NCBI RefSeq assembly: GCF_963664965.1 | Contig: NZ_OY761823.1 | Coordinates: 3,304,001-3,368,000, forward strand | DNA length: 64,000 nucleotides | Source of the DNA: an uncultured Pseudodesulfovibrio sp. | Lineage (GTDB): Bacteria; Desulfobacterota; Desulfovibrionia; Desulfovibrionales; Desulfovibrionaceae | Direction: 5' to 3' | Shown here: positions 28,205 to 51,942 of the stretch, piece by piece | Position numbering within the stretch: position 1 is the first letter of the stretch | Layout of the letters: each line of letters opens with the position of its first letter | Notes under the pieces: model-generated | The model's input: only the letters and a program-made list of their open reading frames with translations | Database searches by the model: none | Told to the model about the DNA's origin: nothing | Translations under genes and position numbers: made by a program

Positions 28205-28358
28205 GCCTCCGGCGGCCAGAGGAAGGGGGGAAGGGAGCACCCCCTTGATTCGCCCCGTCCTGGGGCTCACCCCTTCGGGGCGATGGGAAACCCATCGTCC
28301 AAATCCGCTGTCCTGCGGATTTGTGAAAGCAGGGTACTCCCTTCCCCCCTTCCTCTGG
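28205..28358. repeat. Structured repeat copy 1: multi-hairpin element closed by a 22-bp inverted repeat
   Basis: Perfect 22-base arms (28216-28237 and 28337-28358) enclose four hairpins. These are GCCCC-gtcct-GGGGC (28252-28266), CCCC-ttc-GGGG (28270-28280), CGATGGG-aaa-CCCATCG (28281-28297) and AAATCCGC-tgtcct-GCGGATTT (28301-28322). A GCCTCCGGCGGC motif (28205-28216) precedes the arms. The same series of inner hairpins recurs at 51813-51885 with paired base changes. No protein-coding pattern is visible. Confidence 0.75.
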
Positions 28359-28460
28359 ACTTCATCCCCCCATCCCTCTCCCCGTAACTTTTGGTCCCGT
28401 GCTGATGCGCGGGGGAGGATATCAATAAACTGCTGCTAGATATTTTTTTAAATTCACTGA

Positions 28461-28488
28461 TTAACAACTGGTCTTTTTGGGATATAAT
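28461..28488 (+). promoter_or_regulatory. Strong sigma-70-like promoter in the gene-free interval
   Basis: TTAACA (28461-28466), a 16-bp spacer and a perfect TATAAT (28483-28488). It starts a plus-strand unit that ends at the terminator at 28641-28680, with no long coding frame between. Confidence 0.6.
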
Positions 28489-28495
28489 TTAATTA

Positions 28496-28680
28496 TCAAC
28501 TGAGGATATTTATTAATATTTACCCCCATAAGGAGGTCTCCATTATGGAATGATTTCAAATCATCTATTGGACAATCAAAATAGGTTGGCTCATCTGACG
28601 AATCATTAAATGAATTCGCCGGAAGTAATTCCTATCCCTCGTGGTGACGGCATATGTCGTCATCACACCTTTCTTTTTTT
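28496..28680 (+). ncRNA. Candidate small RNA or micro-peptide transcript, about 185 nt
   Basis: Defined by the promoter at 28461-28488 and the terminator at 28641-28680 in AT-rich DNA, unlike the GC-rich surroundings. Inside, AAGGAGG (28530-28536) stands eight bases before ATG-GAA-TGA (28545-28553). That two-codon frame overlaps by ATGA a 19-codon frame (28550-28609) encoding MISNHLLDNQNRLAHLTNH. Five GGA motifs occur, two near small hairpins (ATTGGACAAT, GGAAGTAATTCC), which would suit a CsrA-binding RNA; this is speculation. It could equally be a small-protein mRNA. Confidence 0.4.
28641..28680 (+). terminator. Intrinsic terminator of the candidate small RNA
   Basis: Arms 28641-28649 and 28658-28666 pair with one G-U wobble that works only in plus-strand RNA. 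They are followed by CTTTCTTTTTTT. Confidence 0.75.
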
Positions 28681-28851
28681 CACGAACTAATTTAAAAAAA
28701 TTGATTACCATTGCCGTGCTAGTAAGTAGTCAACTTTGCGAATTGATTTTTAAAAAATTAATACTGTTATCAATCAGCAGTCGCCCCCCCCAACACGCCG
28801 CCATCTCCGCCCTTTCGTTCCCGCAACACCGGCACATGCGGCGTGGGCACT

Positions 28852-28922
28852 GTTCCGAAGAAATCGCGCCGGTCAGTTATTTTTCAATTTCCACCAACTG
28901 TCCGGCGCGATTTCTTCGGAAC
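28852..28922. repeat. Perfect 21-bp inverted repeat with a 29-nt loop
   Basis: Arms at 28852-28872 and 28902-28922 are exact reverse complements. The pairing continues inward past one T-T mismatch for five more pairs (CAGTT/AACTG). No T tract follows on either side, so it is not a plain terminator. It lies in DNA with no convincing gene. An 8-bp inverted repeat (CACGCCGC 28794-28801, GCGGCGTG 28838-28845) lies just upstream. Confidence 0.7.
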
Positions 28923-28973
28923 GCAGTTTCCCGGCCCCACACACCTCCGCCCGACACAACACACCCGCCGAAG

Positions 28974-29055
28974 GCGCGCCAAAAAGCTTCGGAGATTCTC
29001 AAGAACCCTTCACGAAGGGTTCTTGAGCCGTCGGAGACGCCCGTCCGGCGAGGAC
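28974..29055. repeat. Structured repeat copy 2
   Basis: A perfect 14-bp stem (28998-29011 and 29014-29027, core AAGAACCCTTC) is flanked by a CAAAAAGCTTCGGAGATT segment and a CGTC-GGA-GACG hairpin. The reverse complement of 37281-37385 has the same order of parts with matched base changes. The rest of 28360-29160 holds no gene I can support. Confidence 0.65.
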
Positions 29056-29161
29056 ATCTTCATCCCTCCCCACCTCCCCGCCCATTCAGCGAGCCGCAAC
29101 AATTCCGTAGACCCTTTCACTGGAACCCGTTACACTGCGCGTGCCTGAAAGGGGGATAAGC

Positions 29162-29920
29162 ATGAAAGAGACTGTGACTGGATTGGTCCTGACATATAAT
29201 GGAGAGCGGCTACTGGAAAAATGCCTCAAGTCGCTTGATTTCTGTGACGAACTGCTGGTGGTGGATTCCGAGTCCTCGGACCGCACGCGGGAGATCGCGG
29301 AAAAATGCGGTGCGCGGGTGATTGTTAATCCGTGGCCGGGTCCGGTGGATCAGTTCAAGCTGGCTCTTTCGGAGATAACCACTACATGGGTGGTTTCGCT
29401 CGATCAGGACGAGTTCCTTACGGACGAACTGCGGGGTAACATTGTTTCGAAGCTGTCGAAAAAGGAACATGTCGCTGGATATTATACGCCGCGCAGCTCG
29501 TTCTACTTCAATCGGTTCATGAAACATTCGGGGTGGTACCCGGACTATCTTTTCCGGGTGTTTCGACTGGGTAAAATGGAAGTCACGGCAAGCGGCGCAC
29601 ACTATCATTTCACCCCTCGCGGCGAGACGCTGAAACTGGAAGGTGATATTCTCCATTACCCGTATGAATCGTTTGAGCAGCATATGGAAAAGATCAATTA
29701 CTATGCCGAAGAGGGCGCGAAATCGCTGCGGGAGAAGGGCCGCAAAGGCGGTCTGGTGCGCGGCCTTCTGCATGCGAAAATGAAATTCATCAAACTCTAT
29801 CTGCTGAAACTCGGATTTCTCGACGGCAAGGCCGGATTCTACAATGCCCTGGCGGGCTTCTATTATACTTTCCAGAAGTATATCAGGGTCGAAGAAACCG
29901 AAAAATGGGGCGGCGAATAA
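29162..29920 (+). CDS. Glycosyltransferase family 2 (WaaE/KdtX-like)
   Basis: 252 residues from the ATG at 29162, preceded by AAGGGGGAT; an in-frame GTG seven codons earlier is less likely. GT-A fold: LVLTYNGERLLEKCL, VVDSESSDRT and the DxD-type SLDQDEFL. GWYPDYLFRVFRLGK and HYPYESFEQHMEKINYYAEE are typical of lipopolysaccharide core glucosyltransferases of the WaaE group. It is probably a cytoplasmic membrane-associated enzyme of envelope glycan synthesis; the sugar and acceptor are unknown. It is a single gene following the gene-free interval. Confidence 0.8.
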   Translation: MKETVTGLVLTYNGERLLEKCLKSLDFCDELLVVDSESSDRTREIAEKCGARVIVNPWPGPVDQFKLALSEITTTWVVSLDQDEFLTDELRGNIVSKLSKKEHVAGYYTPRSSFYFNRFMKHSGWYPDYLFRVFRLGKMEVTASGAHYHFTPRGETLKLEGDILHYPYESFEQHMEKINYYAEEGAKSLREKGRKGGLVRGLLHAKMKFIKLYLLKLGFLDGKAGFYNALAGFYYTFQKYIRVEETEKWGGE

Positions 29921-30018
29921 TCGTCTGATTATATTTTCTCATCCGGTTCCTCCTTTCCGGTCTTTGTGGTATTCATGCCTCTCGCAATTCGAACACCAAG
30001 CCACTTTCAGGAGGATCA

Positions 30019-30858
30019 ATGACCAATTTTCTCGACCCGGAAACCGTCCAGCAACTGTTTGAACAGGGAATCGCGTTCGTCTCCATTCACGGACTGAACA
30101 TTCTCATCGCGCTTCTCATATTCGTTTTCGGACGGATGATTGCAAAGAGGATTGCAGAGCTTACGCGTTTAGCCATGCGTAAAAGCAATGTAGATGAGAC
30201 ACTTCGCGCATTCCTGAGAAACATCATCTACTATGCCCTGCTGGCGGCGGTCATCATAATGGCCCTCGGACAGACCGGGCTGAACATCACGTCCTTCCTC
30301 GCCGTACTCGGTGCCGCAGGTCTCGCCATCGGTCTCGCGCTCAAGGATTCACTGTCAAACTTTGCAGCGGGCGTCATGCTCATCATGCTCAGGTTTTTCA
30401 AGAAAGGCGATTTCATCAAAGCCGCAGGCGAAACCGGCAAGGTCACGGCTATCAACATTTTCAATACCATCCTGACCACGGCTGACAACAGGGCCATCAT
30501 CGTGCCCAACTCGTCGGTCCTGTCCGGCACTATCATCAACATCACGGCCAACGACACACGCCGCGTCGATCTGGTTATGGGCATCGGATATGATGACGAC
30601 CTGCTCAAGGCAAAAGAGCTTCTCAAGAAAATAGTCAAGGAAGAACCGCGAGTTCTGGCCGAACCGGAACCGCTCGTCGAGGTTCTCGAACTGGCCGATT
30701 CATCCGTCAACTTCGCAGTACGCCCGTGGTGCAAGACAGAGGATTACTGGGGCGTCTATTACGCCATCACGGAAAAGGTAAAGATCGTATTCGATCAGGA
30801 AGGCATTTCCATCCCCTACCCGCAGACCGACGTTCATCTGTACAAGACGGATGCGTAA
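30019..30858 (+). CDS. mscS: Small-conductance mechanosensitive channel MscS
   Basis: 279 residues, close to E. coli MscS (286). It has three membrane segments; the pore helix carries the Gly/Ala pattern GAAGLAIGLALKDSLSNFAAG, followed by a beta domain (GDFIKAAGETGKVTAINIFNTIL, IIVPNSSVLSG) and a C-terminal alpha/beta domain. It opens on membrane tension to release solutes after hypo-osmotic shock. An AGGAGG site precedes the ATG. It is followed by structured repeat copy 3. Confidence 0.93.
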   Translation: MTNFLDPETVQQLFEQGIAFVSIHGLNILIALLIFVFGRMIAKRIAELTRLAMRKSNVDETLRAFLRNIIYYALLAAVIIMALGQTGLNITSFLAVLGAAGLAIGLALKDSLSNFAAGVMLIMLRFFKKGDFIKAAGETGKVTAINIFNTILTTADNRAIIVPNSSVLSGTIINITANDTRRVDLVMGIGYDDDLLKAKELLKKIVKEEPRVLAEPEPLVEVLELADSSVNFAVRPWCKTEDYWGVYYAITEKVKIVFDQEGISIPYPQTDVHLYKTDA

Positions 30859-30877
30859 TTTTTGGGAACAAATCAGG

Positions 30878-30970
30878 ATGGGAATCCGCCTTTGGCGGAA
30901 TGAATAGATGATTTCGTCTCCGACGGATTAAGGGCTATACCCTTAAGAATCCCATTCTCGCCTTCGGCGA
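30878..30970. repeat. Structured repeat copy 3
   Basis: ATGGGA (30878-30883) and TCCCAT (30950-30955) close an element containing TCCGCC-ttt-GGCGGA, CGTC-tcc-GACG and TTAAGGG-ctata-CCCTTAA (30928-30946). A CGCC-ttc-GGCG hairpin follows. The motif CTTAAGAATCCC is shared with the copies at 51780 and 55651. It lies between mscS and the hisA terminator. Confidence 0.6.
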
Positions 30971-30980
30971 CTCAACAACA

Positions 30981-31015
30981 AAAAGCCCCGGCACTCTTTC
31001 GAGTGCCAGGGCTTT
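30981..31015 (-). terminator. Terminator of hisA
   Basis: A stem from AAAGCCC and GGCACTC (plus-strand order) pairs with GAGTGCC and GGGCTTT around a TTTC loop, with one mismatch. On the minus strand a T-rich tail (TTTTTGTTG) follows. Confidence 0.7.
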
Positions 31016-31034
31016 GAATTTGTTGCAGGTAGAA

Positions 31035-31763
31035 CTACTGAGCGTCGATCCAGGCGTTTGCTTCCTTGACTTCCAGCGTACCAACGTAAATGGCCCGACC
31101 GGAAATGGCACCCTCAAGTCCCTTTTTCGAAAGCGGGTACAGGTTCTTAATGTCGTCCAGCGTGTGCACGCCGCCCGCAGCGATGACCGGAATGGAGGTC
31201 TTGGCGCACAGGGCCTCCAGGCCTTTCACGTTCACGCCGGTCTGCATGCCGTCTCGGGAGATGTCTGTGTAGACGATGAAACGGATGCCGTCTTTTTCAA
31301 GACGCGGCAGGACATCGTCAATGGTCAGACCGGCATCTTCCACCCAGCCCTTTGTCTTGAGCTTGCCGTCAACCGCGTCCAGCGAGACGCCGATGCGACC
31401 GGGCAGGGCCTTGCACAGTTCGGAGAACATCTCCGGATCTTCCAGTGCCATGGTGCCGATAATCAGGCGATGCACACCGGCTTCCACATACTTCTCGGCA
31501 GTGGCGATATCACGAATGCCGCCGCCCAGCTGAACCGGAATATCAATAGCGGAACAGATGTTCTTGATCAGTTCGAAATTCTTGGGCATCCCGGAAAATG
31601 CGCCGTCGAGATCAACGACATGCAGGTAACGGGAGCCGAGTTCTGCCCAGTACCGGGCCTGCGCCACGGGGTCGGACGCGAACACGGTGACCTGATCTTC
31701 CTTGCCCTGTGCAAGGCGGACACATTCACCGTTCTTGATGTCTACAGCGGGGAAAAGAATCAT
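31035..31763 (-). CDS. hisA: Phosphoribosylformimino-5-aminoimidazole carboxamide ribotide isomerase HisA
   Basis: 242 residues, normal length. A (beta/alpha)8 barrel with the catalytic Asp8 (PAVDIKNG) and the second catalytic Asp in [10 protein letters not shown]. The phosphate-binding motifs GGGIRD and [10 protein letters not shown] are present. It catalyses the fourth step of histidine synthesis. It is separated from hisB by an acetyltransferase gene on the other strand and a lipoprotein gene, so the his genes here are not one operon. Confidence 0.96.
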
Positions 31764-32111
31764 AATCCGGGTTCCTTGTATTTAACTATTTGGAATTATT
31801 ATATGCCCTTAATGAATATTCAAACATTGCCGACCGTTTTTCAAACTCCGGCCAGACACGGATGTACAGTTTCAACATCGATTTCAAAATATCATCAAAG
31901 AGCGAGAAAAAAAGGGAGCGTCTCTCCGCGATTGCGGAAATCATTTCGCATGATTTTTTTGGAAAACGATTGTAACGGCTTGTCGATGCCGCTCGCGCCA
32001 ACAATCCGTTCGTGTTTGTAGCCGCAACTTGAAGCAGCGGTCAAGTAGACACATTTGCCCGACTACGCAAAACCTTGTATACGCCAAGATTCTCAAGAAA
32101 AGGAGTCCGCC
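31764..32111. other. 348-bp interval without a supported gene
   Basis: AT-rich relative to its flanks. A minus-strand frame of up to 72 codons ends at 31786, 22 bp before hisA, but it has no clear ribosome binding site or family pattern. A weak plus-strand hairpin (AAATCAT-ttcgc-ATGATTT, 31938-31956, then TTTT) could be a terminator. Nothing else stands out. Confidence 0.5.
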
Positions 32112-32555
32112 ATGAATATCGAGCACGTCGACAGAAACGCGTATGATGCCCTGCTTGCAGTCTGGGAATCTTCCGTTCGCGCCACACACGATTTTCTGCA
32201 AAACGAGGACATCGAGGCATTGAGACCGTTGATTCTTGAACAGTATTTTGAAGCTGTTGAATTGAGATGCGCGAAAAATCCAGAAGGGAAGCTGCTTGGT
32301 TTTTGCGGTGTAGCAGAGGGCAATCTTGAAATGCTGTTCGTTGCATCCGAAAATCAGGGGAAAGGAGTGGGGAAAGCCCTATGCCTATATGCAATTGAAA
32401 AACTTGGAATAACCAAAGTCGATGTCAACGAACAAAACCCGCAGGCAATCGGATTCTATGAACATATGGGATTCCGAACAATTGGACGTTCCCCGTTGGA
32501 TGGGCAAGGTAAACCTTTTCCGCTGCTTCACATGGAATTGACCAAAGAACGGTAG
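32112..32555 (+). CDS. GNAT-family N-acetyltransferase (YjaB-like)
   Basis: 147 residues from the ATG at 32112, preceded by AAAAGGAG; the frame is open upstream but unsupported. Acetyl-CoA binding motif NQGKGVGKALCLYAI (Q/RxxGxG/A type). The C-terminal half (DVNEQNPQAIGFYEHMGF, then GRSPLDGQGKPFPLLHMEL) is very close to E. coli YjaB, also 147 residues. YjaB binds acetyl-CoA; its physiological substrate is not established. The codon use is more AT-rich than that of neighbouring genes, suggesting later acquisition. Confidence 0.82.
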   Translation: MNIEHVDRNAYDALLAVWESSVRATHDFLQNEDIEALRPLILEQYFEAVELRCAKNPEGKLLGFCGVAEGNLEMLFVASENQGKGVGKALCLYAIEKLGITKVDVNEQNPQAIGFYEHMGFRTIGRSPLDGQGKPFPLLHMELTKER

Positions 32556-32600
32556 ACATTTTCGTTCTCATTGAAAGCCGACTCCCGATCATTGGCCAAT

Positions 32601-32630
32601 AAAAAACCCGCTCTCCGAAGAAAGCGGGTT
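32601..32630 (-). terminator. Bidirectional terminator
   Basis: AACCCGCT (32605-32612) and AGCGGGTT (32623-32630) form the stem. The minus strand follows with TTTTTT. It ends the hisB-lipoprotein transcript and may serve the convergent acetyltransferase gene. Confidence 0.8.
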
Positions 32631-32676
32631 ACTTTGCATTGCTGACTCAGCGCGTTTCAGGTGACGCGCATCGAAA

Positions 32677-33327
32677 TCATAATCCGAGTTCCGTAAGTTT
32701 TTCCGCGATACCGTCAGAGGCCAGCCGCGTCGCAGTCACCCATTGGCCGCCGCGGGAAGCGAACTTCTTGGCGGTAAACAGATTTTCAGACAGCGACACC
32801 TGCGTTTCCTCGTAACGGACACGGGTGAGACGTTCGTTTTTCACGTCGATAAGATACATATCCAAGGCAATGGACGCCGGAGTGGTCACGCCGGAAGTGC
32901 TGCCGACGCGTTCGCGCCAGTGGGTGATCTGCGGCACGAGCAGCAGGTCGGCCTGCGCGCACTTGGCGACGCCGAGCCAGTACTTCCATGCCGAAACCTT
33001 GGGCAGGCCTTCCTCTTCAAAAACAACCACGTCCTCGCACTCCTTGAGCGCAAGCGGCGTGATATAGTCGAACACCTGATGTTTCTGGAGTGTGTCGATA
33101 AGAACAGAATCAAGCGCTTCCAAGGTTCCGTCAGGAACAGGCTTGCCCTCTTCCTCAAGATAGCCGGCCAGAATCTGCCAGTTATAAATCGGATTGGTAA
33201 ACCCGGCCACGGCGAGCTTTCCCTCGGGACGGGGCACGGCAGCCGTACGGCTCTTGGGGCCGCAACCTGCGAGCAACAGTGAAAGACAGGCGACAGACAA
33301 CAGGATGATGAAAATTCTACGTTGCAT
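32677..33327 (-). CDS. Lipoprotein of unknown function
   Basis: 216 residues. Signal peptide with lipobox LLAGC. The remainder (KLAVAGFTNPIYNWQILAGYLEE, LIDTLQKHQVFDYITP, ADLLLVPQITHWRER, YLIDVKNERLTRVRYEETQ) has the pattern of outer-membrane lipoproteins that resemble CsgG or TolB-N-like domains. I do not assign a family. Its ATG shares one base with the hisB stop (TGATG), so it is translationally coupled to hisB. The link to histidine synthesis is probably only positional. Confidence 0.7.
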   Translation of the reverse strand: MQRRIFIILLSVACLSLLLAGCGPKSRTAAVPRPEGKLAVAGFTNPIYNWQILAGYLEEEGKPVPDGTLEALDSVLIDTLQKHQVFDYITPLALKECEDVVVFEEEGLPKVSAWKYWLGVAKCAQADLLLVPQITHWRERVGSTSGVTTPASIALDMYLIDVKNERLTRVRYEETQVSLSENLFTAKKFASRGGQWVTATRLASDGIAEKLTELGL

Positions 33328-33911
33328 CAATCAAGACTCCCCTTGGTGCTGGACACACCCTTTCTGCCGATCCGAACAGCCTGACCGAGCGCAATGCCCA
33401 TGGCCTTGAAAGCTGCTTCCAGAAGGTGATGACCGTTGAGACCGTATTCGTACTTGACGTGCAGGTTCATGCCCGCCTTGAAAGCGAAAGATTTCAGAAA
33501 TTCACGCCAGACGTCCTTTTCGTCGCCAGCGATAACGGCAGGCAGCAGTTCATCGTTATACACGATGTAGGGACGGCCCGAGATATCCACGACGACTTCT
33601 GCCAGCGCTTCGTCCATGGGGACCTTGGCGGATGCCACACGGACGATCCCCTTCTTGTCACCAAGGGCTTCGGACAAAGCCTGCCCGAGACACAGCCCGA
33701 TGTCCTCAAGGGTGTGGTGCGAATCAATTTCCAGATCGCCCTTGCAGGTCAAATCCAGATCGAACCCGCCCCAGAAGGCGCACAGCGTGAGCATGTGATC
33801 CGCAAAACCGATGCCGGTATTGACGTTCACCTTCCCTTCGCCTTCAAGAGTCAGGGAAAGCCTGATGTCTGTCTCGTTGGTGGTGCGTTCCACCGTGGCT
33901 TGGCGTGCCAT
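33327..33911 (-). CDS. hisB: Imidazoleglycerol-phosphate dehydratase HisB
   Basis: 194 residues: the monofunctional dehydratase, without the phosphatase domain of E. coli HisB. Metal-binding signatures are [10 protein letters not shown] and [16 protein letters not shown], with the N-terminal [10 protein letters not shown]. It dehydrates imidazoleglycerol phosphate in histidine synthesis. A GGAGAG site precedes the ATG. It is followed by the coupled lipoprotein gene. Confidence 0.96.
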
Positions 33912-33995
33912 GACGCTCTCCTTTACTGCACGCGTCCGCAGGGACGCATTATCACTATGTGCGCGACTGTATAGTAATTCTCTAGAAAAGTGAAC

Positions 33996-34031
33996 CGGGC
34001 GCGACCCGCCTTTTTCGGCAGGCCGCGCCCG
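33996..34031 (-). terminator. Probable terminator after tatC
   Basis: CGGGCGCG (33996-34003) and CGCGCCCG (34024-34031) pair around an inner mismatched stem. It is GC-rich but with only a short TTCACTTTTC tail on the minus strand, so efficiency is uncertain. Confidence 0.5.
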
Positions 34032-34039
34032 ATGTATTG

Positions 34040-35314
34040 TTATGCTTTTGCAGATTCTTCGTCAGGTTCTTGCGACGCATCCCCAGAGGCTTCATCAGCG
34101 GTCGATGCAGCACCCTTTTCAGCTTCCGCTGCTGCGGCATCCATCTCGGCCTGCGCTGCGGCTTCCGCCTCAGCCTGCTTCTTCAGGTGCCGTTTTTCCT
34201 TCTTTCCGAAGAAATAAGCCACCCAGATTCCAAGCTCGTACAGGATGATAAGCGGTCCGGCCATGAGGCACTGCGTGAACGGATCAGGCGGAGTCAGCAC
34301 GGCAGCCAACACAAACCCGATAAGAATGGCGTACTTGCGTTTCTTGCGAAGGCCCATGGACGAAACCATGCCCATGCGCGCAAGGAAGAATATGAACAAT
34401 GGCAACTCAAACACGAACCCGAAGGCGAACAGCAGTTTCAGGCAGAAACTCAGATATTCATTGAGCTTCGGCGTAAACTGAATTCCTCCGGTGGAGAAGC
34501 TGGCAAAGAATTCGAAACCGAACGGGAACACGACAAAATAGCCGAACAATGCTCCCGAGGTGAAGAAAATGGCCGAAATCATGGCCATGGGAATCATCCA
34601 TTTACGCTCATGAGCATACAGCCCGGGCGCGATAAATCCCCAAATCTGGGCAAAAACGTACGGGCTGACAAGAAACAACCCGGCCACGATGGATATTTTG
34701 ATATGTGAGAAAAACGCTTCCGCCGGATAGGTGTACTGGAAGTGCCCTTCCTGTGCCACCTGCATCAGTGCAGTCTGAAGCGTCGTGATGAACAGATCGA
34801 CCTTGGCGGCCCCCTGCGTCAGGCCGTGCTCACCCATCATGTCCGTGAGCAAGGTCCGCAGGTCATTGTAGAAAGCCTGCGGCAAAACCGGGTTTTCGGC
34901 CATCTTCTTCTGAAACACCTTGATCATGGGTTCCATGAGGATGTCGAACATCTTATCGGCAAAACCGTAACAGGCCACCATGCCGACGGCTATGGCGATA
35001 AACGCCTTGGTCAGACGGACACGAAGTTCGCCCAGATGGTCAAGCAATGACATCTGGGCGCCTTCGCCGTCTTCAATATCAGTATCTTCGCTTTCGTCGG
35101 TATCGTCGGAATCCTCGGAATCAGATTCCTCCGGTTCACTCGAACCATCGGAATCGCCAGCTTCGGCCTCCAGTTTCCCTTCGGCTTCGGCAAGATCCTC
35201 TTCCGAGGCGACAGGCATTCCCTCGTCTTCAAGAGACGGATCGTCCGAAGAATCCTGCCCGTTCGCAGTTTCTCCGTTCGGGATTTCCTTTACATCATCT
35301 TTGTCGGAACTCAT
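34040..35314 (-). CDS. tatC: Twin-arginine translocase subunit TatC with long acidic extension
   Basis: 424 residues against about 250 in most TatC. The core begins near residue 88 ([18 protein letters not shown]). It has six membrane segments and the conserved [13 protein letters not shown] and [13 protein letters not shown] blocks. Residues 1-85 are almost entirely Asp/Glu/Ser. The loop between the first two membrane segments carries about 60 extra residues, and the Ala/Glu-rich C-terminal tail is also long. The start at 35314 is 8 bp after tatB, with AGGT upstream. It forms the Tat receptor complex with TatB for folded-protein export. Confidence 0.92.
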
Positions 35315-35322
35315 GCGGGCAC

Positions 35323-35661
35323 CTAGGCTTTCGTCTCGGCCTTGTCGGCAGCGGTCTCAGCCTGTGCCTTTTCCAGCTCAGCCTTGGCAGTCTCAGCCTC
35401 GGCCTTGGCGGTTTCAGCCTCAAGCTTGGCCTTCTCCGCCTTACGGCGGGCCAGTTCCTCGTCCACTTCCCGCTTACGGGCTTCAGACTCGGCCTTGTTG
35501 ACCTCGTCATCAAGAGTGCTCTTCACGTCATTGCCGACACGCTTGAATTCAGCCATTCCCTTACCAAGGGAGCGCAGCATTTCAGGCAGTTTCTTCGGGC
35601 CGATGACGATAAGCGCCACAACACAGATGATAAGCAGCTCAGGTCCGCCAATTCCAAACAT
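35323..35661 (-). CDS. tatB: Sec-independent translocase protein TatB (TatA/B family)
   Basis: 112 residues. N-terminal membrane helix [29 protein letters not shown] followed by an amphipathic helix ([16 protein letters not shown]), then a highly charged, repetitive Lys/Ala/Glu tail. The ELL start and the longer tail favour TatB over TatA. It lies directly upstream of tatC in one transcript and 29 bp after guaA. No separate tatA is in this window. Confidence 0.85.
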
Positions 35662-35690
35662 ATGATACCTACTCAGCGACAGTTAAATCG

Positions 35691-42802: not shown

Positions 42803-42825
42803 CCAATGCTTTTATCTGTTAAAAC

Positions 42826-44192: not shown

Positions 44193-44786
44193 TTACTTCT
44201 CAATTTCTTGGGCCGCCAACTTTCGCATTTCAGCATCATTCTTTTCCAGTTTCAGCACTTTTTCGAAATATTTTCGGGCTTCAACCGGTTTCTTGAAATA
44301 ATGCTTGTAAATGACCCCGAGGTTGAACATCGCCAGCGTGTCAGCCGGATCGATCTCGAGAATCTGTTCATAGTAGGCAGACGCCTTCACGAATTCTTCC
44401 TTGTTGAAATAGGCAATACCGATCGCCTTGAGCACGTCGGTGTTCCCCGGCTTCAGTTCATTGGCCTTTTCAAGCGGCTCCAAAGCCCGATCCCAGGCAC
44501 GCATCATGAGAAACGAGTTGCCGAGATTGACAAGCGCTTCCACGTCATTGGGGTTTTCCTCAACACGGGCCATGAATTCCTTTACACGAGCCATGCCGCC
44601 CCCCTGCCCCATACCGGGCGGAGGAGTCGCTCCCTCCCCGGACATGCTGCTGGGCTGCTGCCCTTTCACGAACAGGTTCGGGTTGTCCATGCGGTACATG
44701 AAACTGGTCACGAACATGGCCGCAACCGAAACAACCACGGCGAGAATCACCGCCTTGCGACCGAAAACCACGGATTTAGCCGTCAT
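44193..44786 (-). CDS. Membrane-anchored TPR protein of the cytochrome c maturation cluster
   Basis: 197 residues from the ATG at 44786, preceded by GGGGGAAG. One N-terminal membrane helix (residues 11-32), a Pro/Gly linker, then three TPR units (DVEALVNLGNSFLMMRAWDRALEPLEKANELKP, then AIGIAYFNKEEFVKASAYYEQILEIDP, and a third). This resembles the TPR half of CcmI/NrfG-type factors that hold apocytochrome c. It is the last gene of the ccm cluster and overlaps ccmD by 11 bp. No CxxC-containing CcmH is nearby. Confidence 0.75.
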   Translation of the reverse strand: MTAKSVVFGRKAVILAVVVSVAAMFVTSFMYRMDNPNLFVKGQQPSSMSGEGATPPPGMGQGGGMARVKEFMARVEENPNDVEALVNLGNSFLMMRAWDRALEPLEKANELKPGNTDVLKAIGIAYFNKEEFVKASAYYEQILEIDPADTLAMFNLGVIYKHYFKKPVEARKYFEKVLKLEKNDAEMRKLAAQEIEK

Positions 44787-44922
44787 TGTCTTCCCCCAGA
44801 AGTTCGAGCTGTCGGACACGCTTCTCCAACGTGCTGGACTTGCCAGCCAGGAAAATGAGATATCCGGCCACACCGAGCCAGACTGCCGCGTTTGCCATAA
44901 AAAGATACGTGGTTGCAGACAT
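44776..44922 (-). CDS. ccmD: Heme exporter protein D (CcmD)
   Basis: 48 residues from the ATG at 44922, preceded by AGAGGGAT; the longer open frame begins inside ccmC and is not credible. One membrane helix (YLFMANAAVWLGVAGYLIFLAG), then a charged helix (LEKRVRQLELL), the standard CcmD plan. It helps release holo-CcmE from the CcmABC complex. It lies between ccmC and the TPR gene. Confidence 0.85.
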   Translation of the reverse strand: MSATTYLFMANAAVWLGVAGYLIFLAGKSSTLEKRVRQLELLGEDNDG

Positions 44923-44950
44923 GATATATCCCTCTTTAAATCCGTTGATT

Positions 44951-45613
44951 CTATTCTTCGTCCCAAATGAGCATGGCTTCAAGACGAGCCTGCTGCGCCA
45001 ACTGTTTCGCCCGCGTCAGGAGCATGGCTCCCCACACGAAACCGAAAGCGGTCAACCCGGCGAAAACCGTCTGCCACATCCGTATTTCCATGCCGGAACC
45101 CTTGCGAGCCAGACCGTCGGGATGTGCGCTGCCCCACAGCTTTGCCGCAAAAAACACGAGCGGCACATCGAGAAACGCCACAATGCCGAGAACGGCGCAC
45201 ACGAGCGCCTTGCGGTCCCGGCCCATGGGCGTCGAGCGCAGCACGAGATACCCCGCATACACATACCACATGATGAGCGCGGTGGTCAGTTTCGGGTCCC
45301 ACAGCCACCAGTGGCCCCACTCGGCACGGGCCCAGACCGAACCGGTGACCAGTGCGAGGGTTGCGAACAGCACGCCGATCTCTGCGGCCGCCCCGGCCAC
45401 CCGGTCATACACCGGCTTGCGACTGAAGAGGTACAGGATGGACGACACGAAAACCACGAAGAAGCTCACCAGCCCCCACCACGAACACGGCAAATGCATG
45501 TAGAAAATCTTCTGCACCGGCCCGGACTGGGCAACCGGCGCATAAAACCAGATCATGTACTGTTGAACCAACAGGGCGACTGCCGCCACTGCAGCCAGTA
45601 TCTTTACCTTCAT
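44951..45613 (-). CDS. ccmC: Heme exporter protein C (CcmC)
   Basis: 220 residues with six membrane segments. The tryptophan-rich heme-handling motif is WGHWWLWDPKLT, flanked by the conserved His of KIFYMHLPCSWW and of WGSAHPDG. It loads heme onto CcmE. It is seven bp from ccmB upstream and 28 bp from ccmD downstream. Confidence 0.95.
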   Translation of the reverse strand: MKVKILAAVAAVALLVQQYMIWFYAPVAQSGPVQKIFYMHLPCSWWGLVSFFVVFVSSILYLFSRKPVYDRVAGAAAEIGVLFATLALVTGSVWARAEWGHWWLWDPKLTTALIMWYVYAGYLVLRSTPMGRDRKALVCAVLGIVAFLDVPLVFFAAKLWGSAHPDGLARKGSGMEIRMWQTVFAGLTAFGFVWGAMLLTRAKQLAQQARLEAMLIWDEE

Positions 45614-45619
45614 AAGAAC

Positions 45620-46297
45620 CTACTCTTCTCCACTGTAGACAAACGGGAACAGGAACAGACCCGCTCCGGCGAACAAACAGTCAAAGGCGAAAATCAAACC
45701 GACCCAGCTGTTGTAGCCATCCGGGCCATCCGGGGAAAAACACATGCCGAACAGGGTAATGCCCGACAGAAGCACCGGCAGCAAAAGCGGAAAAACGATA
45801 ACCGACAGCAACGACTCGCGAGCGGCCTGTCCCTGCGACAAGGCTCCGAGCAGCGCACCGATGACCACCAGCCCGATATCCGCACCAATGAGCGTGATGC
45901 ACAGCAGCCACCACGGGCCGTGAATGGTCTGACCGAGAAACGCGACAGTCGCGGGCAGAAAGACAAGCTGCGAGACCAGCAGCAGGCTCAGTCCGGCAAC
46001 CCCCTTGCCGATCCAGACGGCATGCACCGGCACAGGCGACGACAAAATGCCGATACGCGCACCGTTGGCCTCCTCGATGGCGAACAGGTCGTTGAACACG
46101 AGCACCAGCCCGAATGCCGACGCAAGCCAGAAGATGGCCCCGGCTGCCTGTGCGGTAATCTGCCCGCCAAGCGGCTTGGACAGACTGAACAGAAAAATCA
46201 GAAGCAGTCCGAGCAGGACGGCCTGAACAAGCCCCTGCCCACCGGACATGGACAGTTTCAAATCCTTGGAAGCAATGACTCCTGCGCGCTTCAGCAT
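45620..46297 (-). CDS. ccmB: Heme exporter protein B (CcmB)
   Basis: 225 residues with six membrane segments. It opens with ASKDLKLSMSGGQGLVQAVLLGLLLIFLFSL and contains FNDLFAIEEANGARIGILSSPVPVHAVWIGK, which match CcmB. It is the permease subunit driven by CcmA. It overlaps ccmA by 7 bp. Confidence 0.93.
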   Translation of the reverse strand: MLKRAGVIASKDLKLSMSGGQGLVQAVLLGLLLIFLFSLSKPLGGQITAQAAGAIFWLASAFGLVLVFNDLFAIEEANGARIGILSSPVPVHAVWIGKGVAGLSLLLVSQLVFLPATVAFLGQTIHGPWWLLCITLIGADIGLVVIGALLGALSQGQAARESLLSVIVFPLLLPVLLSGITLFGMCFSPDGPDGYNSWVGLIFAFDCLFAGAGLFLFPFVYSGEE

Positions 46298-46962
46298 GCC
46301 TCCACCTCCGGTGCATATCCCGATGCCGCCCCGAAATATTCGACCTTCCGGCCGCCGATGGCGAGCACGATGTCAGCGAGAGCGGTGTCCTCGGCAACGT
46401 GATGGCTGATCCAGACCACGCTTGTTCCCCGGTCGCGAAATCCCGTGATTTCCCTTCGCAGGGTCGCGAGTGACTTCGGATCGAGTCCGGTTCCGGGCTC
46501 ATCAAGGAAAATGAGCTTCGGCTCCACAAGATAGATGCGTGCCAGATTGAGACGCTGGGCCATGCCGCGCGAAAAGGACCCGGCCTTTTCCTCGGCGGCA
46601 CGTTCAAGCCCCACCCGTTTCAGCAGTTGCATCAACTCGTCACGGGATGGAGACAGATCATACATGCTGCCCCAGAATTTCAGATTGGCGAGCGCGGACA
46701 TCCCCGGATAAATGAACGTCGAATGCCCGAGATAGGCAACGTCCTCAGGGTCGAGATTCAGGCTCACATCCCCGGCAGAGGGCTTGGACAATCCGGCCAT
46801 GATACGCATGAGCGTGGACTTGCCCGCACCGTTGGGACCAGCCACGAGCATAATCTGCCCCGGCCCGACCTCGCAGGATATCTCCTTGAACACGAGCTTG
46901 CTGCCGTAGAATTTGGCGGCACGCTTCACTGTGAGAAGCGGCTTCCCCGGATCGGCAGTCAT
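46291..46962 (-). CDS. ccmA: Cytochrome c biogenesis ATP-binding protein CcmA
   Basis: 223 residues. Walker A GPNGAGKST, a signature-like SFSRGMAQRLNLARIYL, Walker B LIFLDEPGTGLDP and switch His WISHHVAED. The FSRGMAQRL variant of the ABC signature is typical of CcmA. ATP hydrolysis drives release of heme-loaded CcmE. It is translationally coupled to ccmF (TAATG, one shared base) and ccmB. Confidence 0.93.
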   Translation of the reverse strand: MTADPGKPLLTVKRAAKFYGSKLVFKEISCEVGPGQIMLVAGPNGAGKSTLMRIMAGLSKPSAGDVSLNLDPEDVAYLGHSTFIYPGMSALANLKFWGSMYDLSPSRDELMQLLKRVGLERAAEEKAGSFSRGMAQRLNLARIYLVEPKLIFLDEPGTGLDPKSLATLRREITGFRDRGTSVVWISHHVAEDTALADIVLAIGGRKVEYFGAASGYAPEVEAC

Positions 46963-48857
46963 TATTTTTCCCTCTCAGGACGTCGCGTACGGGTCAACAC
47001 GAGCAGGGGCAGCAGGCACATGAGCGTACCGCCGATCCATATCCAGTTGACCAGCGGGTTGATGCTGATCTTGAAACTCGCCTTGTCGCCCTCGGTAAAC
47101 CCGAGCAGCGTTGAATACAGCTCATCACCAAGGCTGAAAATGGTGGAGACCTCGGCAAACTGCTGTCTTTCCCAGTTCACGTAGATACGTTTTTCAGGAG
47201 CCATCATTCCGAGCAATTCTCCGTCCCGCGAAACTTCCAGCAATGTGGTCGCACGGGCCCGAATTTCCTTGGTGCGGTCCTCGGCCATGCTCACATACTT
47301 GATGTCGTACTCACCGATATGCGCCACTTCGCCTTCGGACAGAACAAACTCCTGCTCGATCTTGTACGGCCCGGAAAAGGCCACGCCAAGCGCCATGAGC
47401 ACCAGCCCGAGATGAATGCCGTAGGCACCCCATGACCGCCGAGTCGTCCGAACAGCCGGATACAAAACGAAGAGCAGTACAATGGAAGCCATGGCAGCCA
47501 CCGACGCGGCAGCGGTCAGCAGAGCCAGTGGCTTGGTCATGCCAAAGAAATAAAAGGCGATCAGGCTGCCGACAAGCACGACACTCACGCCGATCAATCC
47601 CTTGGAATTGCGGACACCGCCCTTCCATCCGAGCCACGGACAGTAGGCGAAAATCAACACGATAAAGCTCAGGAACGGAAGGCAGACACGGTTGTAGAAA
47701 TGTGCGTCCAGCCCCATGGACTCGGTGGTCCAGATACGGCTGATGACCGGCCACATGGTGCCGATGGTGACGACCGCGCCAAGCGCGAGCAGGAACCATG
47801 CGGTGATGACCAGCATGCCCTGACGGCTGACAAGGTCGGACAGGGAGCGATGGGTATGCCGCTCGCCCATGAAAACGACCATCAGCGTAACGGCAATCCA
47901 GACCATCTGCGCCCAGAAAAGCGGAATAGCCACACCGGATTCACCGAACCCGTGAATGGACTGGATCACGCCGGAACGGGTCAGGTAGGTCGAAAAGACA
48001 CAGAGCAGGAACGTCAGGGACATGATGAAGACGTTGGTGCGTTGCAGGGCGTTACGCCGCGCCTCGATAATGGAGGTGTGAATAACGGCGGTTCCGGCAA
48101 ACCACGGAATAAGAGAAGCGTTTTCCACCGGGTCCCATGCCCAGTAGCCGCCCCAGCCGAGTTCCATGTAGGACCACCAGCCGCCCAGCACGATGCCTGC
48201 GGTCAGGAACGTCCATGACAGGATGTTCCAGTTGCGACAGACCTTGATCCACGATTTTTCTTCTCCCGCAATGCATGCGGCAAGGGCGCAGGCAGCCGGG
48301 ACGGCATACCCGGCAAAGCCGAGGAACAGGAGCGGCGGATGGAAGATCATGCCGGGATTGCGAAGCAGCGGATTCAGGCCGCGGCCGTCGTGCGGAGCCG
48401 GAATGATTTCAATGAATGGATTGCTCCAGCTTGTGAGCAGCAGCAGGAAAAAGCCCTGAATGGTCAGGAAGAACATCCAGAAATAGAGCCGCGTCCTCGG
48501 AGCAAGGGTCTTGTATCCCTGCGTCTGCACGAAAATCACACCGCAGAGAGCGATGATCAATTCCCAGAACAGCAGCGAACCTTCACGCCCGCCCCAGAAG
48601 GCTGTGAGCGTATAGACGAACGACAGCGCGTTATCCACGTTGTCATATACATATTCAAAGGAATAATCCCGTGAGGTCAGCGCCACGAGCAGAATAAGTG
48701 AGGAAAAGACAACGCCGCCGGACGCGATCTGCTGGCCGCGTTCGATAAGCGGCAGAGCCGAGTCTTTCCCGCTCCACGCGGCCATTGCGGCCCACGCTGC
48801 GAGAAAAAGAAAAGCGAGCAATGCGAAAAGCAGGCCCACATAACCGGTCAGGTGCAT
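46962..48857 (-). CDS. ccmF: Cytochrome c heme lyase subunit CcmF
   Basis: 631 residues from the ATG at 48857, preceded by GAAGGAG; 40 upstream open codons are unsupported. About 14 membrane segments; the WWD heme-handling domain is GWGGYWAWDPVENASLIPW, with WGGREGSLLFWELI and HPPLLFLGF blocks. A periplasmic domain lies near the C-terminus. It ligates heme to CxxCH motifs of apocytochromes. No ccmG or ccmH accompanies it here. Confidence 0.95.
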   Translation of the reverse strand: MHLTGYVGLLFALLAFLFLAAWAAMAAWSGKDSALPLIERGQQIASGGVVFSSLILLVALTSRDYSFEYVYDNVDNALSFVYTLTAFWGGREGSLLFWELIIALCGVIFVQTQGYKTLAPRTRLYFWMFFLTIQGFFLLLLTSWSNPFIEIIPAPHDGRGLNPLLRNPGMIFHPPLLFLGFAGYAVPAACALAACIAGEEKSWIKVCRNWNILSWTFLTAGIVLGGWWSYMELGWGGYWAWDPVENASLIPWFAGTAVIHTSIIEARRNALQRTNVFIMSLTFLLCVFSTYLTRSGVIQSIHGFGESGVAIPLFWAQMVWIAVTLMVVFMGERHTHRSLSDLVSRQGMLVITAWFLLALGAVVTIGTMWPVISRIWTTESMGLDAHFYNRVCLPFLSFIVLIFAYCPWLGWKGGVRNSKGLIGVSVVLVGSLIAFYFFGMTKPLALLTAAASVAAMASIVLLFVLYPAVRTTRRSWGAYGIHLGLVLMALGVAFSGPYKIEQEFVLSEGEVAHIGEYDIKYVSMAEDRTKEIRARATTLLEVSRDGELLGMMAPEKRIYVNWERQQFAEVSTIFSLGDELYSTLLGFTEGDKASFKISINPLVNWIWIGGTLMCLLPLLVLTRTRRPEREK

Positions 48858-49014
48858 AAAAACTCCTTCAAAACGAATTTTGCTTGCGGAATGCACAGCC
48901 ATACCGCACATCGGGACTGTACGTCCATGACCAAAGTCAAATGGCGATAAATCAGCCGTATCATCAGGCGCAACCATGTGAACAATTTTTCACCAGCCGC
49001 GATCCCGCTTCGAC

Positions 49015-49062
49015 AAAAAAACATCAGACCCAAAGCGGAGCCATCCGCACAGGCCTGATGTT
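49015..49062 (-). terminator. Terminator after ccmE
   Basis: AACATCAG (49020-49027) and CTGATGTT (49055-49062) pair around a second small GC stem. The minus strand then reads seven T. Its position between ccmE and ccmF suggests that ccmF-A-B-C-D has separate expression or depends on readthrough. Confidence 0.65.
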
Positions 49063-49098
49063 CATTGATATTTTGACAAATACAAGGCAAATGCAGGC

Positions 49099-49530
49099 CT
49101 AACTCTTGGCCGCTTCCATTTCCTTGCTCTGCTCTTCGTACTTGGACGGACACTTGGTCACAAGGGTTCTGGCCTTGAAGACCTCCCCGTCGGGCGTAAA
49201 CGAACCTTCAACGATAACCTCGACGTCTTCCTTGAAGGTGTCCGGCAGTGCCCCCTTGAAATCGACACGCAGCTTCTTCTGCCCATCCAGCTTGTCAATG
49301 AGATCAAAGGACGCTCCGAGCTTGCCCTCGGCAATGACGAGGCCCGCAGGCGACACCTTGCCGAACAGACGTGCCTGCTTGATCTCGGCACGATCCATAT
49401 CCAACGCCTCGGAAACATTCAAAAAATAAACACTGTCTTCGGTCAATCCGGAAAACACAAGATACCCGAGGCCGCCCAGAAAGAGCAGGAGAGCCACGGC
49501 ATACACCGCTTTATTGGAACTTTTCGCCAT
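49099..49530 (-). CDS. ccmE: Cytochrome c maturation heme chaperone CcmE, cysteine variant
   Basis: 143 residues. N-terminal membrane anchor, then an OB-fold domain (ARLFGKVSPAGLVIAEG, VDFKGALPDTFKEDVEVIVEGSF). The heme-binding site, HxxxY in most bacteria, is here Cys127-Pro-Ser-Lys-Tyr131 (CxxxY). Cysteine-type CcmE is known from sulfate reducers and archaea. It carries heme from CcmC to CcmF in the periplasm. It lies 32 bp after the CBS-domain membrane protein gene. Confidence 0.92.
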   Translation of the reverse strand: MAKSSNKAVYAVALLLFLGGLGYLVFSGLTEDSVYFLNVSEALDMDRAEIKQARLFGKVSPAGLVIAEGKLGASFDLIDKLDGQKKLRVDFKGALPDTFKEDVEVIVEGSFTPDGEVFKARTLVTKCPSKYEEQSKEMEAAKS

Positions 49531-49562
49531 ACATATCCCTATTGAACGCCGGACTGGCGCTG

Positions 49563-50621
49563 CTATTTTTTCTTTTCCGCGTCTGCTTTCTTGCGGGCGT
49601 TGGTCAGCTCATCACGCTGCTGGCGTGCGAGTTCCCGCATGTCCACGACCTGATCGGTCTCATCAACAATTTCACTGCCGAGGATTTCCTCAAGCACGTC
49701 TTCCAGCGTGACAACACCGGCCACGCCGCCATACTCGTCGAGCACCACACACAGGTGCAGCCGACTGCCGAGAAACTTCACCAAGAGCGCATCCAGCGTG
49801 ATGGTTTCGAGCACGAAACGCACCGGACGCATGATGTCGCTCAGCTTGAGTTCATCCCGGTCATCGGCCAGCGCCTCAAGCACCTGCCGACGATACACCA
49901 CACCGACGATATCTTCCGGGTCGTCTTCATACACCGGAATCCGGCTATGCGGCCACGAGGGATGCACCTCGCGCGCTTCGGCCACCGTCATATCCGACGG
50001 AAGCGAAAACACCACGGTGCGCGGCGTCATGATCTCTTCCACCACCTTGGAATCAAGCGAGAGGATGTTCCTGATGGACTGTTCCTCATACGGCTTGATC
50101 GACCCGGATCGCCTCGTCAGCGAAACGACAGCCCGGATGTCGTCTTCCGTGTGGTCCGGCCCTTCATTACACTTACTGACCGACGTTGACAGCAAACCGA
50201 GCACCTTGATGACCGGCTTGAAAAGCCAGACCAGCCCCCGAAGCGGACGGGCAAGCGGCGGAGCGATCTGGTCGCTGTACACCACACCGATCGTCTTCGG
50301 GAGTATCTCGGTGAAAATGAGAATAATTACTGTAAAACCCGCTGTAAAGGCCCAAAGCGTTTCTTTTCCGTACAAATTTGCCCAGGCCCAGCCCGCGACA
50401 GCGGCCCCGGCGGTGTGGGCGCAGGTGTTCAGCGTCAGGATGGCCGTGATCGGCTCATCCACATTTGAACGCAGTTTGTGTAGTATTTTAGCAGACTTGC
50501 TGCCGGAAGACATCAGTTTTTCGATGTCTCCCCAGCTCATTGAATAGAGCGCGGCTTCTGCCACAGAGCAGAACATGGAGACAAACACGGCCACGCCGAC
50601 GGCGAGAATGAGTTCGAACAT
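49563..50621 (-). CDS. CNNM/CorC-type membrane protein with CBS domains
   Basis: 352 residues. The N-terminal DUF21 domain has about four membrane segments (MFCSVAEAALYSMSW, FTEILPKTIGVVYSD). A CBS pair follows at about 205-320 (VVEEIMTPRTVVFSL, SRIPVYEDDPEDIVGVVYRRQVL, LCVVLDEYGGVAGVVTLEDVLEEILG). A short charged tail ends the protein. The transporter-associated CorC_HlyC domain is absent, so it is a shortened member. A role in divalent-cation (Mg/Co) transport is inferred from the family. It lies upstream of ccmE. Confidence 0.82.
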   Translation of the reverse strand: MFELILAVGVAVFVSMFCSVAEAALYSMSWGDIEKLMSSGSKSAKILHKLRSNVDEPITAILTLNTCAHTAGAAVAGWAWANLYGKETLWAFTAGFTVIILIFTEILPKTIGVVYSDQIAPPLARPLRGLVWLFKPVIKVLGLLSTSVSKCNEGPDHTEDDIRAVVSLTRRSGSIKPYEEQSIRNILSLDSKVVEEIMTPRTVVFSLPSDMTVAEAREVHPSWPHSRIPVYEDDPEDIVGVVYRRQVLEALADDRDELKLSDIMRPVRFVLETITLDALLVKFLGSRLHLCVVLDEYGGVAGVVTLEDVLEEILGSEIVDETDQVVDMRELARQQRDELTNARKKADAEKKK

Positions 50622-50751
50622 TGGTTGTTTCTTTTACCTCGATCAGTCCGGTTGAAGCCGGAGTCTTGAAGCCTCAAGATAGCAGATGGAAACCGCGCAT
50701 GCAATACACAACACCCTTGACTTCCACGGGGATTGAGGCGAACTGGAAGAC

Positions 50752-51765
50752 ATGACCAAATCCGGTGCATCAAAACTCACTGTCGTGTTCCGCCTCAGCC
50801 ACATGGGCGACGTGGCCCTGACCACGGGCGTACTCTCCCACTGGCACGAAAAACGCGGTGACCGATTCATCTTCATCACGCGCGCAGGAAGTGCGCCGCT
50901 TCTGGAGAACCACCCCGCCGTGGCAGAAATCATCCGCCTTGACGACGCCGTGCTCAAGGGCATGGACTGGTTCAAAGAAGCCCGACGGTTGGCAGCGCAG
51001 TACAAAGATAATCGGCTGATCGACCTGCACGGCACCCTGCGGTCCCGCATCCTTTCCCTTGTCTGGAAAGGAGAGGTCCGCCGCTATCCGAAATTCGGCA
51101 TCGTCCGCCGTCTCTATGACCGCACCCATGCCGAGCGCTACCGGAAAATTCTCGAAGCCACCAACGTGACGCAACGCTACGCCATGGCCCTCGGCGGCAA
51201 GCCTCCGGCAGCCGGGCACCTCACGCCCCGCATTCACCTGACCGATGCCGAGCGCGACGAAGCAAAGATGCTGCTCGACAACATAACCAACGGACGACCG
51301 CTCATCGCCATCCATCCATACGCCACACATCCGGCGAAGCAGTGGCCGCGTGAGCACTGGCTCACCCTGACCAGCCTGCTCGCCAGCGCCGGAATGGACT
51401 GGTTCGTCATCGGACACGACGACACCCCGCTCCTTCCCGGTCATGACCGCGAATTCACCAACGTGACCAACCTGCGCGATACCTGCGCGCTTCTCGCCGA
51501 AGCCGACATGCTCGTCACTGCCGATTCCGGTCCCATGCATCTCGCCAGCGGCGTGGGCACGCTCGTCACCGCCCTGTTCGGCCCTACCGCCAAGGTCTGG
51601 GGATTCTACCCCGCAGGACCGCAGGACACTGTGCTCGAACTCGACATGGATTGCCGTCCCTGTTCGCTCCACGGCGGCAGGACATGCGAAAAAGGTTACG
51701 AATGCCTCGCAAGCCAGACGCCCGAGATGGTCATGGAAGTGATCACGCGGCGATTCGCGGAGTAA
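50752..51765 (+). CDS. Glycosyltransferase family 9 (heptosyltransferase-like)
   Basis: 337 residues. GT-B fold with RLSHMGDVALTTGVL at the N-terminus, AIHPYATHPAKQWPREHW (nucleotide-sugar site) and the family-defining TADSGPMHLASGVGT. A Cys cluster near the C-terminus (DCRPCSLHGGRTCEKGYECL) is typical of lipopolysaccharide heptosyltransferases. It probably transfers heptose to the inner core of lipid A. It is a single gene, divergent from the CNNM-type gene and followed by structured repeat copy 5. Confidence 0.85.
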   Translation: MTKSGASKLTVVFRLSHMGDVALTTGVLSHWHEKRGDRFIFITRAGSAPLLENHPAVAEIIRLDDAVLKGMDWFKEARRLAAQYKDNRLIDLHGTLRSRILSLVWKGEVRRYPKFGIVRRLYDRTHAERYRKILEATNVTQRYAMALGGKPPAAGHLTPRIHLTDAERDEAKMLLDNITNGRPLIAIHPYATHPAKQWPREHWLTLTSLLASAGMDWFVIGHDDTPLLPGHDREFTNVTNLRDTCALLAEADMLVTADSGPMHLASGVGTLVTALFGPTAKVWGFYPAGPQDTVLELDMDCRPCSLHGGRTCEKGYECLASQTPEMVMEVITRRFAE

Positions 51766-51779
51766 TGGCAGAAGGGGAT

Positions 51780-51942
51780 GCCGCTTTGCGGCGATGTCGG
51801 GTGGTTGGATTCGCCACGTCCTGTGGCTCACCGCTTTGCGGCGTCGGTAAAGAACCGACGTCCAAATCCGCTGTCCTGCGGATTTGTCGCCTCCGGCGGC
51901 TTAAGGCCGAGGGCCTTAAGAATCCCAGTGCGCCTATCGGCG
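51780..51942. repeat. Structured repeat copy 5 (seven to eight hairpins)
   Basis: Successive hairpins: GCCGC-ttt-GCGGC (51780), GCCAC-gtcct-GTGGC (51813), CCGC-ttt-GCGG (51831), CGTCGGT-aaaga-ACCGACG (51842), AAATCCGC-tgtcct-GCGGATTT (51864), CGCC-tcc-GGCG (51888), TTAAGGCC-gag-GGCCTTAA (51901) and CGCC-tatc-GGCG (51931). The block 51813-51885 matches copy 1 with compensating stem changes; 51888-51942 matches copies 3 and 6. It lies between the heptosyltransferase-like gene and the trpB terminator. Confidence 0.75.

Follow-up and report, generated by a model that had tools for sequence, protein, structure and literature searches.

A four-hairpin repeat that occurs twice in a 64,000-nt window of the chromosome of an uncultured Pseudodesulfovibrio sp. 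is probably a tiny mobile element that is not autonomous; it would be maintained through the folding of its single strand and mobilised in trans. The window, by which we mean the whole stretch of DNA analysed, contains two intergenic ranges (28205-28358 and 51780-51942; positions and strands of parts are those of the window, forward strand) in which an earlier note had described the same series of hairpins. Their common part is a core of 77-79 nt, GAYTCG...GGATTTG, and for this core the description holds. As limits of an element, the full ranges are too wide: the first includes the arms of one intergenic palindrome and the second further host-repeat hairpins, and the flanks of the two cores, unlike each other, are host repeats. 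All the stems and loops that had been listed are present in both copies, including the fourth hairpin, whose stem of 9 bp is one pair longer than claimed; loops of the type (G/A)TCC(T/A) are usual in hairpins 1 and 4. With copy 1 as BLAST query, copy 2 was recovered at an E-value of 2.7e-17. Elsewhere the element mostly measures about 70-85 nt, and it has no gene of its own. The earlier note knew of no named family with this layout, whereas the strand opposite to the window's forward strand matches the Rfam family RF02902 (AaHKsRNA22) below its threshold. Comparison of copies and sites shows that the element is mobile, that it inserts precisely and that its folded strand is conserved.

As the earlier note had held, the paired changes speak for maintenance of a folded strand, either RNA or single-stranded DNA, and the alignments bear this out. 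In the genus-set alignment (A3; 111 rows, 98 of them distinct, a few being weak or overlapping matches), double-sided changes are found at 24 of 25 pairs, in 265 cells, and 96.3% of cells are paired; no shuffle out of 500 was as high, and slid structures were 39-52% paired. The 33 rows from the source genome (A4, weak copies included) have double-sided changes at 19/25 pairs, the 67 rows from mixed taxa (A5) at 20/25, and the 54 gammaproteobacterial rows (A7) at 22/24, with 97.0% paired. The covariation score was reached by 0/500 shuffles in each of A3, A5 and A7, and the count of further pair types by 2/500 in A5 and 1/500 in A7. Fitting to the model biases these alignments towards the structure, yet double changes still lie far above both controls. 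Variation of stems without pairing, which the earlier note would have taken as a refutation, is not what was seen: the stems vary yet pair. Departures of the G-U and A-C kinds are about equal (46 vs 41 cells in A3, 15 vs 8 in A5), thus RNA pairing is not specifically indicated.

A covariance model built from 15 copies of the source genome (R1) gave 28 matches in that genome at E<=0.01, 24 of them above 48 bits, so that the genome-wide search proposed earlier as a check yields more than two copies. When copy 1 together with its palindrome served as BLAST query, 63 matches were returned from the same genome, many of them to the palindrome alone. Several repeat families that are unrelated to each other, as well as Rhs-type genes, harbour the source-genome copies. 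Since the intergenic palindrome of copy 1 recurs there several times core-free, the limits of the insert are defined. The source genome holds several intergenic palindrome families, with arms like CCAGAGGAAGG or TTAAGAACCC, that recur there, some occurrences holding the core and others lacking it (in the window at 28216-28358, and at further positions).

Core-free homologous stretches, sought among the fetched loci, were found for 100 of the 132 filled genus-set sites (22/24 in the source genome, 78/108 in relatives); a looser rule gave 106/132, of which some were false, having run into core ends. The insertion sites are TT^C or TT^G, and as a rule a single T is shared. On the left the shared base is T at 18/24 own, 95/108 genus and 28/29 cross-taxon sites; the base before it is T in 50 of 56 flank clusters (186 sites), and the base after it is C in 41 and G in 13 of these clusters. 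At the junctions that were read against core-free homologues, that of copy 1 apart, the border is ambiguous by 1 nt. One locus (L338) carries three mutually different copies, arranged head to tail and separated by single Ts, which suggests serial insertion at the element's own border, duplication followed by divergence being the alternative.

In the mechanism that we favour, one strand folds into four hairpins of fixed order, and a factor acting in trans would recognise this folded strand and join it to a TT^C or TT^G site, in most cases sharing a single T. Such joining would leave neither terminal inverted repeats nor a long target duplication. Folding would be needed for movement, as it is for IS200/IS605 and REP ends, and the target strand may be one that is exposed or made by transcription.

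A REP-associated tyrosine transposase (RAYT), suspected in the earlier note, did not materialise: PF01797 (Y1_Tnp) has no match in the source genome, nor in 11 of the 13 same-genus genomes with at least five copies (source included), nor in multi-copy hosts such as G069, G073, G216 and G206. REP/RAYT mobilisation was rejected on the source-genome result and for want of any positive link across the genus. A link to reverse transcriptase was rejected as well, RVT_1 being missing from the source genome and from 8 of the same 13 genomes (source included). The core might still be a miniature IS200/IS605-like or REP-like element of the HUH type, whose Y1 transposase was lost or resides on other mobile elements; the lack of inverted repeats, the border ambiguity of 1-3 nt, the asymmetric ends, the two like-looped end hairpins and the T-rich target would all suit such an origin, but with the PF01797 negatives just given and no GTAG tag we regard it as possible rather than likely.

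The orientation of copies at tRNA genes and inside protein genes carries further information. T-arm sites with the RF02902 strand in tRNA sense make up 38 of 233 sites, in 20 genomes, against one listed site in the opposite orientation (L240, genome G023; a second L240 copy is alike); the same genome has another T-arm site in tRNA sense, L193, which escaped the pattern. Of 12 T-arm loci (from 15 scanned, L391-L394, L396 and L397 being left out of the scan), 10 contain an intact tRNA gene, for Arg, Ser or His; L193, L234, L235 and L240 have an intact tRNA gene too. At the six assignable in-gene sites (PglZ, portal, GGACT, two M15, Rhs) the RF02902 strand is in gene sense. This bias at tRNAs and genes suggests a strand tied to transcription, or RNA. 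An RNA of the RF02902 strand could, for example, be joined into the T-loop of a tRNA precursor or into another RNA and copied back to DNA. In its favour are the count of 20 genomes vs 1, the six gene-sense sites, the naming of RF02902 as a small RNA (sRNA), and the repeat at L234, L235 and L193, which by eye spans the tRNA tail, starting at the T-loop, passing CCA and ending in the T-run of the terminator. The source genome has, however, no RVT_1 match, G-U departures are in no clear excess, the tRNA units may be few ancestral units and the L240 copies lie in the opposite orientation, and we consider an RNA-mediated route unlikely.

The tRNA-tail units could instead be scars of integrative elements, with the core travelling as no more than a passenger that has a preference for TTCGAA. 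Integration at the 3' ends of tRNA genes is a classical pattern, and the unit tail equals the tail of the neighbouring tRNA in 5 of 14 loci compared and matches it partially at others; shifted borders (as at L383) or a different neighbouring tRNA (as at L385) lower the score. Against scars stand the array units that were read: each measures about 154-180 bp, and nothing but tail, terminator, spacer or inverted T-arm, and core is repeated in them; an inverted T-arm lies beside the core in many gammaproteobacterial units (by eye). We hold this account, too, to be possible rather than likely. More tentative by a shade is a wider proposal, namely a cross-phylum class of mobile elements that would move as a folded single strand, probably RNA, tied to transcription, and would land for preference in the universal T-loop of tRNAs, with tRNA tails up to the terminator being duplicated into arrays of unit genes that lie downstream of tRNAs. 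A link of this kind to T-loop and tail would account for the tRNA-fragment arrays that adjoin tRNA genes.

Copies inside protein genes are found in several settings. In a BREX-3 PglZ gene (NF033449, 877 bits, full-length match) the core lies in frame within a 31-aa insert that is missing from two plasmid homologues. Near an end of the gene it occurs in a Mu-type portal gene, in a gene for a GGACT protein and, at two places, in M15 peptidase genes. In Rhs-type genes (TIGR03696) it breaks the reading frame, and uninterrupted homologues exist. Long open reading frames (ORFs) over genus copies have a Pfam match in one case out of 10, outside the core, and were not counted as genes. Selection for open frames was considered and rejected: all three antisense frames are open in 14 of 27 distinct cross-taxon cores vs 33% in shuffles, but several of these cores represent the same site, so that the result was not used. 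Two copies in Rhs-type genes of one genome (G032; L238:999-1136 and L239:1001-1138) have their hairpins 3 and 4 separated by an extra insert, about 54 nt long and with a hairpin of its own, which is another small element nested in the core.

The distribution is wide and patchy. R1 detects the element in 22 of 35 other same-genus genomes and, outside the family but within the order, in 1 of 24 genomes. A search pattern that describes hairpin 4 matched 52 stretches in GTDB contigs, with chance matches estimated at about 0.1; half of these (26) carry titles of Pseudodesulfovibrio, Desulfovibrionaceae or Desulfovibrio, and the other 26 carry titles that include Ectothiorhodospira, Halopseudomonas, Desulfosoma, Planctomycetota, Anaerolineales, Caldilineae and Spartobacteria, where titles of metagenome-assembled genomes may mislead through misbinning. 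Two hosts, Ectothiorhodospira shaposhnikovii DSM 243 and Halopseudomonas formosensis JCM 18415, have strain numbers. Given 27 of the other-title and viral loci, R1 recovered the complete element in 27/27. A second covariance model (R2), used for wider taxa, gave up to 18 matches per genome in cross-taxon hosts, which had been picked because they hold the element, and matched 32/296 other phylum genomes, spread over 22 families; it matched none of 10 genomes from other genera of the same family. In the gammaproteobacterial class of Halopseudomonas, R2 matched 136 of 369 genomes, with E-values that are rough and come without a shuffled-genome control; two of these genomes (G077 and G074) were already known holders, and 13 candidates were scored per genome, which makes copy numbers lower bounds. 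In the gammaproteobacterial loci that were fetched, chosen for arrays and high scores, the element is evident in 20/20. Neither the window core nor a 40-nt piece of RF02902 had a match in phage and plasmid collections, and in viral contigs the first pattern was found in one contig and the second in none. Viral contig L293 (IMGVR_UViG_3300023440_000622) has two copies; phages may thus carry the element between hosts. In another genome (G088) many copies lie at contig ends (C18, C41, C154, C221, C261, C262, C267, C307 and C320), thus suggesting that the element or a repeat carrying it probably breaks the assembly and that the true count is higher.

This distribution also bears on whether the core is a functional cis-acting or small RNA under selection, spread by host repeats and recombination and not by mobility of its own. 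In favour of this, Rfam classes RF02902 among sRNA genes, and the structure is conserved across phyla. But the element is present in only 22/35 other same-genus genomes, its contexts are unrelated, the core is missing at homologous sites and several copies are partial or weak, all of which makes selection for function without own mobility improbable.

Several observations weigh against a mobile element moved in trans as the explanation. No movement has been observed, mobility being read from site comparisons. The border at copy 1's palindrome is ambiguous by 3 nt (TGA) and not by 1 nt. A 154-bp composite of core and palindrome recurs at 97% identity, and some copies have spread within larger repeats, so that the copy number overstates the core's own jumps. 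Hairpin loops as a target rule, convincing by eye, were rejected as not significant over 43 flank clusters (p=0.11). A clear preference of G-U over A-C is not seen. Y1_Tnp is present in 32/48 other hosts and absent from 16/48, and no candidate for a recurrent helper ORF emerged from 28 cross-taxon loci, groups away from shared sites comprising at most 3 loci; one of them, with 3 loci (L271, L287 and L292), is an SmpB-like ORF (by eye). The tRNA units may descend from few ancestors, in which case 20 vs 1 does not stand for 20 independent events. Finally, the best RF02902 score is 39.5 bits vs a gathering score of 39.8, which is never reached, and one of 14 control genomes (Methanocaldococcus jannaschii) also has a weak match, below the cut-off. 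With these points taken into account, we still favour a mobile element moved in trans.

Positions of the two window copies and of their surroundings are as follows.

Table. Parts of the two core copies, adjoining host repeats and the Rfam match in the window.
Feature	Position	Strand	Remark
Core element, copy 1 (four hairpins)	28247..28323	+	R1 101.6 bits; T on both sides (28246, 28324)
Copy 1, hairpin 1 (stem 28252-28256/28262-28266, loop GTCCT)	28252..28266	+	Helix 1: double-sided changes at 5/5 pairs
Copy 1, hairpin 2 (stem 28270-28273/28277-28280)	28270..28280	+	Double-sided changes at 4/4 pairs
Copy 1, hairpin 3, most variable (stem 28281-28287/28291-28297)	28281..28297	+	Double-sided changes at 7/7 pairs
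Copy 1, hairpin 4 (stem 28300-28308/28315-28323, loop TGTCCT)	28300..28323	+	Double-sided changes at 8/9 pairs
Left arm of outer palindrome around copy 1, outside the element	28216..28237	+	Core-free palindromes elsewhere in genome
Right arm of outer palindrome around copy 1, outside the element	28337..28358	+	Core-free palindromes elsewhere in genome
Core element, copy 2	51808..51886	+	R1 105.9 bits; left neighbour G, right neighbour T
Copy 2, hairpin 1 (stem 51813-51817/51823-51827, loop GTCCT)	51813..51827	+	
Copy 2, hairpin 2 (stem 51831-51834/51838-51841)	51831..51841	+	
Copy 2, hairpin 3 (stem 51842-51848/51854-51860)	51842..51860	+	
Copy 2, hairpin 4 (stem 51863-51871/51878-51886, loop TGTCCT)	51863..51886	+	
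Host-repeat hairpin left of copy 2, outside the element	51780..51792	+	Core-free homologues
Host-repeat hairpin right of copy 2, outside the element	51900..51920	+	Core-free homologues
Full-length sub-threshold match to Rfam RF02902 (AaHKsRNA22) at copy 2	51801..51895	-	27.0 bits; gathering score 39.8

Copy 1 is located on the 3' side of a Xan_ur_permease gene, within the intergenic palindrome, and copy 2 on the 3' side of a Glyco_transf_9 gene, ahead of a convergent PALP-family gene. On the source chromosome (G000:C1), positions 1,785,084 to 3,332,246 form a 1.55-Mb gap without a good core copy, which was matched in 19 of 20000 simulations (20 merged events, uniform placement); a weak RF02902 match (21.2 bits) lies inside the gap at 2,514,448. 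At another locus (L267), a core copy at 423-497 is found about 370 bp downstream of a tmRNA gene (867-1219, minus), which passes with an E-value setting.

About one third of the sampled gammaproteobacterial genomes carry an element known, from the literature searched, only as an obscure sRNA family, and RF02902-like matches should not be read as ordinary regulatory RNAs. The element is small enough for synthesis and has many matched core-free and filled sites; it thereby offers a test case for asking if a folded strand of 80 nt is by itself enough for mobilisation, and which agent would bring this about.

With respect to known families, the closest is RF02902. Its model aligns end to end (1-101) on the opposite strand, with all four hairpins and linkers, and scores 35.7 bits at copy 1. 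In the source genome RF02902 has 14 matches at E<=1, of which 13 fall on core copies, all on the opposite strand. From this alignment we conclude that the element would belong to the same family as RF02902. The name, Aggregatibacter sRNA 22, denotes a small RNA of one genus, and the core matches stay below threshold; at gathering score no Rfam family matches in the window or in five other loci. The literature search found no paper carrying the core letters or the encoded peptides; within the AaHKsRNA series, PMC9577009 treats another member, RF02898.

The core differs from miniature inverted-repeat transposable elements in having no terminal inverted repeats, its ends GAYTCG and ATTTG being by inspection not complementary, and in a border ambiguity of 1-3 nt in place of a multi-nt target duplication. 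It resembles IS200/IS605-type miniatures in its end hairpins and in lacking inverted repeats and a long target duplication. The cyanobacterial small dispersed repeats (SDRs), of 21-27 nt, also have compensatory changes and nest in other repeats and in themselves; they are to our knowledge confined to cyanobacteria, and the cores, at about 70-85 nt, are longer. With REP/RAYT systems the core shares hairpins, multiple copies and non-autonomy, but it has no GTAG tag, GTAG being seen in border profiles only in the target at Rhs sites, and the source genome has no RAYT (Y1_Tnp) gene. Rickettsia palindromic elements (RPEs) are short palindromic repeats found in frame in protein genes and in RNA genes, as described in PMC2229807, and the core, too, is in frame in a conserved protein gene (BREX-3 PglZ); the RPEs described there are 105-146 bp, have terminal inverted repeats and are known from Rickettsia, whereas the core is mostly 70-85 nt and has four separate hairpins. 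Palindromic repeats tagged with CGTC are, according to PMC3733652, without a dedicated transposase, and CGTC precedes hairpin 4 in many cores (seen, uncounted), where a 9-bp stem is followed by T and then by C or G. The repeats of that source are single hairpins of 8-9 bp, most with a CCA-type tail, whereas the core is a fixed four-hairpin unit.

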